From positions 62,001 through 126,000 of the forward strand of contig DULG01000047.1 in the NCBI GenBank assembly GCA_012840485.1: 64,000 bases of DNA. Direction: 5' to 3'. The position numbers were made by a program, and so were the translations under genes. Position 1 is the stretch's first letter, and each line of letters begins with the position of its first letter. The notes below the pieces were generated by a model. The model was not told the origin of the DNA. It made no database searches and saw only the letters and a list, made by a program, of their open reading frames with translations. Below, one piece after another: positions 26,234-60,777 of this stretch. Origin of the DNA: Clostridia bacterium (GTDB taxonomy: Bacteria > Bacillota > Thermoanaerobacteria > Thermoanaerobacterales > Thermoanaerobacteraceae).

Positions 26234-28309
26234 TTAATTTTCTTTAGGCCTAAACTCAACTTCTACAATTTCTCCTTTTTTCAAAATTGTACCTTCTTTT
26301 GGAGTTTGATTAACTGCAAAACCACTACCTTTTATTTTTATTTTAAGTCCTAGAGAATTTAAAATCTCTGCAGCTTCTTTTACGTTCTTACCACTTAAAT
26401 CAGGAACTACTACTTCTTGTATCTTTTCAGGATTTAAATACAAAATTACCTTGGTATTTTCTTCTACAATAGCTCCTGGCTTAGGTATTTGGTCAAAAAC
26501 AGTGTCTCCACCGCCTTCTATCATAAAATCAAGTTTACTTGACAAAATGACTCTCTCCGCTTCATACAATTTCATATTCCTCACATCAGGCACTACAACT
26601 GAGGCGGGTTTTTGTATTCCTTTTGGCTGTACTTCTAAATATCTCAAAGTATCATCTAAAATACTCTTTACTACAGGTGCAGCCAATTGGCTGCCAAAAT
26701 GGGTCTCCGGGTTGTTAGGTTCGTCTATTACTACCAGCACAATAACTTTAGGGTCATCGGCTGGCGCAAAACCTACAAAAGAAGCCACATATTTGCCTGG
26801 CATATACTTTTCTGTAGTTCCAGTTTTGCCAGCTACATCAAATCCTTCAATATATCCTGCTTTACCAGTCCCCTCTGAGACAACACTTTTTAGTATTTCT
26901 CTCATTGTAGAAGAGGTCTCTTCTGATATAACTTGTCTTACTATCTTCGGCTTAAATTCTTTTACTATTTTGCCATTTGAATCCACAATTGATTTTACAA
27001 TTAGAGGTTGCATCAATTTTCCTCCATTGGCTATTGCAGAAACAGCAGTGATCATCTGTAAAGGGGTAACAGCAATGCCTTGCCCAAAAGAATTAGTAGC
27101 CAGTTCAACAGGTCCCACACTCTCCTCCGGCATTACAAGTCCAGGAGCTTCTCCAGGGAGGAGTATCCCTGTTCTTTGGCCAAATCCAAAATCATGTATG
27201 TATTTATAAAGCTTTTCTACCCCTAACCTTTGCCCTAATGTTACAAAAACTACATTACAAGAATTTTGAACTCCTTTTACAAAATCTTCACTTCCATGGG
27301 TGGCCCAGCAATTTATCCTGTGACCAGCAACTGTAGTATAACCCGGGCAATAGAACTGTTCGTGCAGACTCACTAATTTTTCTTCTAAAGCAGCAGAGGC
27401 AGTTATTGTCTTAAAAACGGAACCAGGCTCATAAGCATCTGAAATTGCTTTGTTTCTCCATAATTTATACCATTCCTCTTGAGGTCCTTCAAAAGGGTTA
27501 TTGGGATTAAAATTAGGCCTACTTGCCAAAGCCAATATTTCACCTGTTTTAGGAACCATAACAATGGCTACTGCCCCTTTAGAAGGCTTAGAATGTACCA
27601 TCGCTTGATTTAAAGCCTTTTCTGTAAAGTGCTGAATAGTTTCATCTATTGTAAGTACAACGTTATAACCTGGAAGAGGTTCAAAATACTCTTCTTCGCC
27701 CACATCCATTTTCCTACCTATAGCATCCATTGGTGTAGAAACTTTTCCTGGAATACCTCGTAAAAAGCTGTCAAATACAAGTTCGATACCATCCAATCCC
27801 TGATTATCAATGCCAGTAAAACCCAGTATGTGGCAGCCAAGACTATCTTCCGGATAAAATCTTTTCATATCTTCAGAAATTATTATACCATCTATGTTAA
27901 GCTTTCTTATTGCAGTTGCTTTTTCATCATCAACCTGTTTAGCAATCAAGGCTTCCTGCATGTTTTTATTAAAGATTTTTTGTAAAATTTTTTCTTTATC
28001 TAATCCTAATATTTGAGCTAATACTTCCGCTACTGACTGCCTCTGAGAATCTGGTATTTCTTTAGGTATAACAGTTATTTTATTGACACTAACATTTTCT
28101 GCTAATACTTTTCCATTTCTATCAAATATATTTCCCCTTTTACCGCTGACAGATACATCCAACGTCCATTGAGGAAGTGCCATCTTTTGATATTCTTCAC
28201 TCTTTACAACCTGTATCCAAACAAGCCGAAGTATAAGAGCAAAAACTGCTATAGAAGATAAAAAAAGTAAAAATAGAATTCTCCTCTTTATAGATATAGT
28301 CGGATGTAT
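26234..28309 (-). CDS. class B penicillin-binding protein, FtsI/SpoVD type, with PASTA domains
   Basis: Septal or spore transpeptidase of about 691 residues. The frame opens just after a TAG at 28310; an N-terminal basic stretch (IKRR) and a transmembrane helix lie in the first 35 codons, then a pedestal domain (RGNIFDRNGKVLAEN). The transpeptidase has PGSVFK (catalytic Ser, SxxK), NSCN (SxN) and KTGTTE. Two PASTA repeats end the protein (VVVPDVRN... and VVVPDLSG...). No ATG, GTG or TTG occurs before Met-43, which lies after the membrane anchor, while GGGGG stands 6 bases before ATA at 28309. I therefore place the start at ATA. SpoVD and FtsI cannot be separated on sequence alone. Confidence 0.85.
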   Translation of the reverse strand: MHPTISIKRRILFLLFLSSIAVFALILRLVWIQVVKSEEYQKMALPQWTLDVSVSGKRGNIFDRNGKVLAENVSVNKITVIPKEIPDSQRQSVAEVLAQILGLDKEKILQKIFNKNMQEALIAKQVDDEKATAIRKLNIDGIIISEDMKRFYPEDSLGCHILGFTGIDNQGLDGIELVFDSFLRGIPGKVSTPMDAIGRKMDVGEEEYFEPLPGYNVVLTIDETIQHFTEKALNQAMVHSKPSKGAVAIVMVPKTGEILALASRPNFNPNNPFEGPQEEWYKLWRNKAISDAYEPGSVFKTITASAALEEKLVSLHEQFYCPGYTTVAGHRINCWATHGSEDFVKGVQNSCNVVFVTLGQRLGVEKLYKYIHDFGFGQRTGILLPGEAPGLVMPEESVGPVELATNSFGQGIAVTPLQMITAVSAIANGGKLMQPLIVKSIVDSNGKIVKEFKPKIVRQVISEETSSTMREILKSVVSEGTGKAGYIEGFDVAGKTGTTEKYMPGKYVASFVGFAPADDPKVIVLVVIDEPNNPETHFGSQLAAPVVKSILDDTLRYLEVQPKGIQKPASVVVPDVRNMKLYEAERVILSSKLDFMIEGGGDTVFDQIPKPGAIVEENTKVILYLNPEKIQEVVVPDLSGKNVKEAAEILNSLGLKIKIKGSGFAVNQTPKEGTILKKGEIVEVEFRPKEN

Positions 28310-28320
28310 CTAAATCCCCC

Positions 28321-28764
28321 CTATCTATTAAACACCCCCAATAACCTCATAAAAAAGTTGCTTTTTTCCTGTGATTTTTCTTCAACTTTTTTATCTTCAG
28401 CTATTTTATGTGTTTCACCAACATTTATGTAAACTATTTGGTCTTTCTCTGCCAATTGCATTCCCAATTTTACTTTTGCAATTTCTTCAATTCGCGCAGG
28501 ATTTGTCAAAGAAGCTATTTGAGCTTTTAATTGCTGATTTAAATTATCAGTATATTGAATCTGTCTTTCCATTTTATCTAAAGCAATTGACCTTTGATAA
28601 ATAACAGCATACCTATAAACAACTAAAATACTCAAAGAGCTTATAAAGACTACTAGAATCAAATTTTTTAATTTGGTATTTTTTTTCGCTTTTTTAACTG
28701 GTTCTCTTCTCTCTGAGGTATATGGGGGATATTCGTAATTATACTCTCTTTGTGCTACTATCAA
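28321..28764 (-). CDS. ftsL: cell division protein FtsL
   Basis: A 147-residue bitopic protein: basic cytoplasmic head of about 35 residues, a transmembrane helix (LILVVFISSLSILVVYRYAV), then a coiled-coil/leucine-zipper segment (about 60-95) and a short extracytoplasmic tail with IARIEEIAK-like features. FtsL links FtsQ and the septal synthase. Identity rests on position between rsmH and the PBP and on this topology rather than on conserved residues. The start appears to be TTG with GGAGGTAG upstream. Confidence 0.8.
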   Translation of the reverse strand: MIVAQREYNYEYPPYTSERREPVKKAKKNTKLKNLILVVFISSLSILVVYRYAVIYQRSIALDKMERQIQYTDNLNQQLKAQIASLTNPARIEEIAKVKLGMQLAEKDQIVYINVGETHKIAEDKKVEEKSQEKSNFFMRLLGVFNR

Positions 28765-40769: not shown

Positions 40770-41618
40770 CTAAGCCCGTGCCAAACTCAAGCCCTCATCA
40801 GCATGGTAAGAGCTTCTTACCAAAGGTCCTGAAGCTATGTATTTAAACCCTAATTCATAACCTATCTCTTCATATTTTTTAAATTGTTGAGGAGTGACAT
40901 ATTCTGCTACTTCTATATGCTTGGCTGAGGGCCTCAAGTACTGTCCTATAGTCATCATATCACAATCAACACTTCTTAAATCCTTCATAACCTGTATGAC
41001 TTCTTCTTCCGTCTCCCCCAGCCCTACCATAATCCCTGACTTAGTGAGAATAGAAGGATCCAATTCTTTAGATTCTTTTAAAAGGTTTAAAGACCTTAAA
41101 TAATCAGCTTTTAGCCTCACTTTTGAATAAAGCCTAGGCACTGTCTCCACATTGTGATTTATCACATCTGGCTTTGCCTCCACAACTGTGCGAATTGAAT
41201 CTGCATTTCCCATAAAATCTGACACAAGTACTTCAATCGTAACTCCCGGTAACTTTTTTAGTTCATATATTGTCTTCGCAAAATGGAAAGCTCCACCATC
41301 TGGCAAATCATCTCTTGTAACGCATGTCACTACTACATGTTTTAATCCTAATTTTTGAGCAGCCTCTGCCACCCTTCTCGGCTCATCCTCATCAAGTGGT
41401 TGAGGATGTCCTTTTTCTACGGCACAAAACCTACAATTTCTAGTACATATATTACCCATTATCATAAAAGTTGCTGTCTTTCTTCCAAAACATTCTCCCA
41501 TATTAGGGCAATTAGCACTCTGACAAACCGTATTCAAAGACATATTTTTTAAAAAAGCTTCCATCCTGTTTAAATTTTCGTTTAATATCCTCACTTTGAG
41601 CCATTCAGGCTTTTGCAT
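40770..41618 (-). CDS. lipA: lipoyl synthase LipA
   Basis: A 282-residue radical SAM enzyme that inserts sulphur into octanoyl groups. The auxiliary cluster ligands are in [12 protein letters not shown], the radical SAM triad is CTRNCRFC, and the RSSYHADE end matches family. Start overlaps the last codons of lipB by 14 bases. It completes a two-gene lipoate biosynthesis unit. Confidence 0.96.
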
Positions 41619-42291
41619 TCTCTTCCACCGCCAATCTATCTAAAGTTATCTCATTAAAGTGTATATCAAATACTTCGCTAAATTTATCAACCATTTTTTC
41701 TTTTACTTTTTCTATGTCTTCATTTATTCCAAGCTTTTGCATAGAAGTAACTCCAAACTCGGTAATGCCACAAGCATTTATTAAGCCAAAATATGAAAGG
41801 TCTGTCTTTACATTAAAAGCTATTCCGTGCCACGTAATCCATCTTTTTACCGCAATGCCTATAGCACATATCTTCTCATCTCCTACCCATACTCCAGTAT
41901 ATTTAGGCTTTCTTCCCGCTTCTATGCCATAATCTTTTAAAAGTCTTATAATCGCCTCTTCTAGATTATAGACAAAAAGGTGGAGATCTTTTTGCCACTT
42001 AGCCAGGTTGAATATAGGATATGCAACTATTTGACCGGGGCCGTGAAAAGTTATTTTCCCTCCCCTTTCTACTTTATACAGATCTGCTTTTTCTTTAAGA
42101 TATTCTAAAGGTACAAGTATATTTTCGTCATAATCTCCCGAAACACCTATAGTGTAAACTGGCGTGTGTTGAAGCAATATCAAAATCCCATCTGCTTCTC
42201 CTTTTTTAATTCTTTCAAAAGCTTTAAGCTGTATTTCTTTCCCCTCCATATAAGGCACAATTCCTAGTTTTAAAACTTCTCCTCTTCTCAA
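41605..42291 (-). CDS. lipB: octanoyltransferase LipB
   Basis: A 228-residue transferase moving octanoyl from ACP to lipoyl domains. [20 protein letters not shown], the conserved Lys, and [20 protein letters not shown] with the catalytic Cys are present. It appears to start with TTG, GGGAG upstream. It immediately follows a wrecked dihydrolipoamide dehydrogenase gene. Confidence 0.95.
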
Positions 42292-42321
42292 AATAATCTC
42301 TCCCTATATAAAATTTATCCT

Positions 42322-60267: not shown

Positions 60268-60777
60268 TTAATTTTTTGGTGTTAATACCATCATTAAATT
60301 TCGCCCTTCTATATCAGGCGCCTTTTCTACAACTCCATATTCGCTGACCTGCTCTGCAAACCTTTTTAAAAGGTCTTCTGCCAGTGAAGTATGGGCTGCT
60401 TCTCTCCCTCTAAACCTTATAGTAACTTTAACCTTATCTCCATCTTTTAAAAATTTAATAGCGCTTTTCAATTTTACACCAAAGTCGTGGTCTTCAATGG
60501 TAGGGGACATCCTTATTTCCTTTACATTTATAACCTTCTGTTTTTTCTTTGCTTCTTTTTCTCTTTTACTAAGCTCATACCTATATTTACCAAAGTCCAT
60601 CAATTTGCACACAGGGGGATTGGCTTGTGGAACAATCTTAACCAAATCAAGATGCCTCTCCTGGGCAATTTTATAAGCTTCCTTTGCTGACATTATACCT
60701 ATTTGCTTGCCATCTTGGTCAATCAGCCTTACCTCTTTGTCCCTTATTTCCTCATTGACCTGCAGATCTTTGTTAAT
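60268..60777 (-). CDS. infC: translation initiation factor IF-3
   Basis: A 169-residue protein: N-terminal domain from INKDLQVNEEIRDKEVRLID to the SAKEAYKIAQERHLD helix, a Lys-rich linker and a C-terminal domain with FRGREAAHTSLAEDLLKRF. The first in-frame ATG (60693) is inside the N-domain; the real start is ATT at 60777, 9 bases after AGGAGG. AUU is the classical infC start codon that lets IF-3 regulate its own translation. Confidence 0.95.
   Translation of the reverse strand: MNKDLQVNEEIRDKEVRLIDQDGKQIGIMSAKEAYKIAQERHLDLVKIVPQANPPVCKLMDFGKYRYELSKREKEAKKKQKVINVKEIRMSPTIEDHDFGVKLKSAIKFLKDGDKVKVTIRFRGREAAHTSLAEDLLKRFAEQVSEYGVVEKAPDIEGRNLMMVLTPKN

Follow-up and report, generated by a model that had tools for sequence, protein, structure and literature searches.

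A conserved AUA codon as the probable translation start of a SpoVD-type penicillin-binding protein gene following ftsL

The window, that is, the whole stretch of 64,000 nucleotides analysed here, belongs to a genome of 2.65 Mb whose nearest named relatives are Thermoanaerobacter wiegelii, T. thermocopriae and Caldanaerobacter subterraneus; judged by these, its source belongs to Thermoanaerobacter or to a close neighbour of that genus. A run of minus-strand genes in the order mraZ-like, rsmH-like, ftsL, penicillin-binding protein (PBP), murE-like and murF-like is the dcw cluster; the members other than ftsL and the PBP gene were named from their translations alone. The PBP carries PBP_dimer and transpeptidase domains and two PASTA stretches (PF03717, PF00905, PF03793), and its score against TIGR02214 (735.8 bits) lies above the curated SpoVD cutoff of 688. 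The features of interest are the following.

28321..28764, minus strand: ftsL (TIGR02209, 59 bits for a cutoff of 42.45), with a TTG start.
28321..28323, minus strand: TAG stop codon of ftsL, embedded in the Shine-Dalgarno (SD) sequence of the PBP gene, 11 nt 5' of the ATA.
28313..28326, minus strand: extended SD sequence AGATAGGGGGGATT, with the core AGGGGGG at 28316-28322.
28310..28312, minus strand: in-frame TAG closing the PBP frame, directly 5' of the ATA.
28307..28309, minus strand: probable AUA start codon of the PBP gene, an ATA in 20/20 family genomes.
26234..28309, minus strand: gene for a SpoVD-type class B PBP, 691 codons counted from the ATA, plus the stop codon.
28211..28279, minus strand: hydrophobic membrane anchor, PBP codons 11-33, RRILFLLFLSSIAVFALILRLVWIQVV, read by eye from the translation.
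28181..28183, minus strand: first canonical in-frame codon, an ATG at codon 43, which both L007 and the second genus lack.
60775..60777, minus strand: ATT start codon of infC after AGGAGG, kept in the family members examined; an internal control, separate from the PBP gene.

On the minus strand, the 5' end of the PBP gene reads ...AAT AGA TAG GGGGG ATTTAG ATA CAT CCG ACT ATA... These letters agree with the initial annotation of the site, according to which the frame is closed by the TAG at 28310-28312, GGGGG (28316-28320) lies 6 bases 5' of the ATA, and no ATG, GTG or TTG occurs between the TAG and Met-43; the ATG at codon 43 is indeed the first canonical codon. The same annotation held that initiation at Met-43 would leave the transmembrane anchor out of the protein. 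This is correct, the anchor being formed by codons 11-33, and as judged by inspection the PBP retains its single N-terminal anchor only when initiated at the ATA or close to it.

The homologous codon is ATA in every one of the 20 genomes of the family, the window genome counted, which represent three genera and whose PBP proteins are approximately 70-90% identical (genome G007 is represented in this count by locus L036). Inspection of relatives for an ATG at this codon, suggested at the outset as a check, thus yielded none among the 20 family genomes, and ATG, GTG or TTG at or beside the homologous position in distant relatives. A codon alignment of the 18 full-length copies of the gene contains 22 columns in which all residues are isoleucine. 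Column 1 is the only one of these to use a single codon (ATA), the other 21 showing mixtures of ATA, ATT and ATC. Likewise, just 20 of the 335 columns with an invariant amino acid (Met and Trp left aside) have one codon throughout. Since the surrounding N-terminal residues vary, position 2 being H, Y, S or L, constraint on this part of the protein does not account for the invariance of the ATA. In the draft assembly of T. thermocopriae JCM 7501 (loci L036 and L021), the PBP gene falls, at around codon 250, into two overlapping pieces in different frames, which is probably a draft-assembly error.

The reading frame on either side of the ATA was compared in the same genomes. An in-frame stop codon directly precedes the ATA in 15 of the 20, and in the remaining five the open stretch 5' of the ATA is devoid of ATG, GTG and TTG. 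Downstream, pairwise differences within codons 3-13 number 276, 335 and 842 at codon positions 1, 2 and 3, respectively, a pattern from which we conclude that these codons are already under coding constraint. Codon 3 always specifies proline, as CCA or CCG. Coding constraint from codon 3 onward, combined with the constant proline, indicates that translation begins at codon 1 or 2. Codon 2 is TAT, CAT, TCA or TCG and, once, TTG; in this last case (genome L014), the TTG immediately after the ATA could serve as start. In another genome, L007 (a MAG), codon 43 is itself an ATA, so that the sole nearby canonical start is gone.

An SD sequence, AGGAGG or AGGGGGG, is present 6-8 nt 5' of the ATA in all 20 genomes. 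Complementarity extends on either side of the core, AGATAGGRGGGATT being typical, and the calculated duplex energies range from -12.8 to -15.9 kcal/mol with a generic anti-SD rather than one taken from the 16S rRNA of the window genome. The value for the site in the window, -14.7, is about the sixth strongest among 63 ORFs. Depending on the species, the ftsL stop codon lies either 11 or 12 nt from the ATA. The strong SD at 6-8 nt and the presence of ATA in 20/20 family genomes support the initial proposal of an ATA start, and on this comparative evidence we consider it very probable that, in Thermoanaerobacter and its sister genera, translation of the PBP starts at the conserved AUA codon. A conserved RNA structure across the start was also considered and discarded, as predicted folds were not alike between species. 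The adjacent ftsL gene has its TTG start (28762-28764, minus strand) behind a strong SD (-14.6); weak start codons are therefore found in both of these neighbouring division genes.

Scanning of the 63 ORFs of the window identified clear reliance on a non-canonical start in the PBP gene and infC only; in nearly all other genes, a canonical codon stands behind an acceptable SD. The ATT of infC is the classical example of such a start and is to be expected of the gene for IF3. One further ORF, probably lipB (41605-42303, minus strand), was set aside as a candidate for an unusual start because relatives carry TTG or GTG at the position, which makes it ordinary. The TTG of this ORF is preceded by a modest SD.

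Orthologues from outside the family (order, class and phylum levels) gave a different picture. All 70 that were scored have ATG, GTG or TTG, the best start being ATG in 38, TTG in 18 and GTG in 14. This best start falls at codon 0 in 35 of the 70 and at codon 1 in 24, where the ATA is codon 1. Locus L081, whose translation there is not the N-terminus, lies outside this count. A second, SpoVD-like paralogue in the same genomes starts with TTG, GTG or ATG. With ATA throughout the family and canonical starts at or beside the site elsewhere, initiation at AUA is the sole economical reading of the data. In the simplest history, the AUA start would have arisen once, before the split of the three genera, at the ancestral start position, and would have been kept thereafter.

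We envisaged that the true start could be a canonical codon farther downstream, yielding a shortened PBP. Met-43 is present in the PBP of the window and in many relatives, and a TTG occurs inside the anchor, at codon 12 or 14, in ten genomes other than L014. However, a protein initiated at Met-43 loses its membrane anchor, and the SD preceding this codon is weak (-4.7, compared to -14.7 at the ATA). Moreover, the first canonical codon is codon 120 in L007 and codon 85 in L019, and codons 3-42 evolve as coding sequence while the conserved SD and the ATA lie 5' of them, all of which makes a downstream start very unlikely. An ATT at codon 11 led by AGGAG, a candidate raised in the initial annotation, was rejected: the AGGAG is one base away from the ATT, and relatives read AGA AGA or AAG CGA at this place. 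The proximity of ftsL, which ends just 11-12 nt 5' of the ATA and in some species shares its frame with the PBP gene, might suggest that the PBP arises by readthrough of, or frameshifting from, ftsL without a separate initiation event. Yet the alternation between 11 and 12 nt causes the relative frame to vary by species, readthrough in the in-frame species must pass two or three stop codons, and the SD before the ATA is conserved; these observations effectively exclude such a mechanism. Equally negligible is the probability that the ATA stems from faulty sequencing or from decay of the start codon. While a single transition would convert ATG to ATA, the ATA is found in 20/20 independently assembled species, which rules out sequencing error, and the PBP frame is intact and full-length except in one draft and in one copy that is truncated where its contig ends.

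A less extreme possibility is that the AUA is a genuine start with no regulatory role, a frozen accident tolerated thanks to the strong SD. The genomes are AT-rich and the extended SD could compensate for the AUA. Against this, ATG is one mutation away and better for initiation, but is found in none of the 20 species, whereas the other isoleucine codons all drift. The consistent absence of ATG suggests selection for weak initiation, and we regard the frozen-accident explanation as rather improbable, though less so than the alternatives above.

In Escherichia coli, infC starts with AUU and is autoregulated by its own product. An AUU start has also been attributed to E. coli pcnB (Binns and Masters 2002, cited in PMC13009471). 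What these genes would have in common with the PBP gene is an expression-limiting, near-cognate AUN start subject to discrimination by IF3; they differ in having AUU rather than AUA, and in being other genes. A closer parallel is provided by Staphylococcus aureus, where ribosome profiling revealed AUA starts behind extended SD sequences in infC and ccpN (PMC13009471). The ccpN AUA start is conserved with Bacillus subtilis, and reporters with non-canonical starts have about 10% of the activity of AUG in S. aureus, ccpN reaching up to 30% in rich medium (PMC13009471). The conserved AUA, the extended start-proximal SD and the affiliation to Firmicutes are shared with the PBP gene. However, the S. 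aureus products are a translation factor and a metabolic repressor, while here the product is a septal/spore PBP specified in the dcw operon directly after ftsL; and the S. aureus sites were defined by ribosome profiling, plus reporters for ccpN, whereas the PBP site is supported by genome comparison. As for the protein itself, the dcw-encoded SpoVD of Clostridioides difficile, an interaction partner of FtsL with roles in asymmetric division and in building the spore cortex, belongs to the same family and has the same operon surroundings (ftsL, dcw); the start codon is not a topic of that study (PMC10693644). The PBP described here may serve division and/or sporulation.

These elements can be assembled into a model. 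The strong extended SD, lying over the ftsL stop codon, would place the ribosome at the AUA. Ribosomes ending translation of ftsL likely reinitiate there, a coupling by which ribosomes fresh from ftsL would probably be used for PBP initiation. The anticodon arm of the initiator tRNA, GGGCTNATAACCC, has one exact match in the genome, with anticodon CAU; no initiator with a UAU anticodon was found in the genome with this exact anticodon-arm pattern, which divergent forms would escape. As the lone exact match has CAU, the simplest view is that the ordinary initiator tRNA decodes the AUA, presumably through a third-position mismatch. Discrimination of IF3 against AUA would then most likely keep PBP synthesis low and tied to ftsL translation. 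By analogy with S. aureus, we find it likely that the AUA codon has a throttling role, keeping the PBP yield low. It is conceivable, albeit doubtful, that IF3 itself sets the level of the septal/spore peptidoglycan synthase, infC (AUU) and the PBP gene (AUA) both being on IF3-discriminated starts. Were this the case, PBP output would shift relative to the remaining dcw operon whenever IF3 activity changed with growth rate or as cells entered sporulation.

To our knowledge, conserved AUA initiation codons have very seldom been documented, and no prior report of the AUA start described here was found in a limited set of open literature. The kind of start is already known from the conserved AUA codons of S. 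aureus; what stands out here is which gene carries it, where in the dcw operon that gene lies, and the conservation throughout a family. Standard annotation normally accepts ATG, GTG and TTG alone, and would truncate the PBP, dropping its membrane anchor, throughout this bacterial family. If the AUA limits output, it would represent a simple control, held by selection, over an enzyme of cell division or sporulation.
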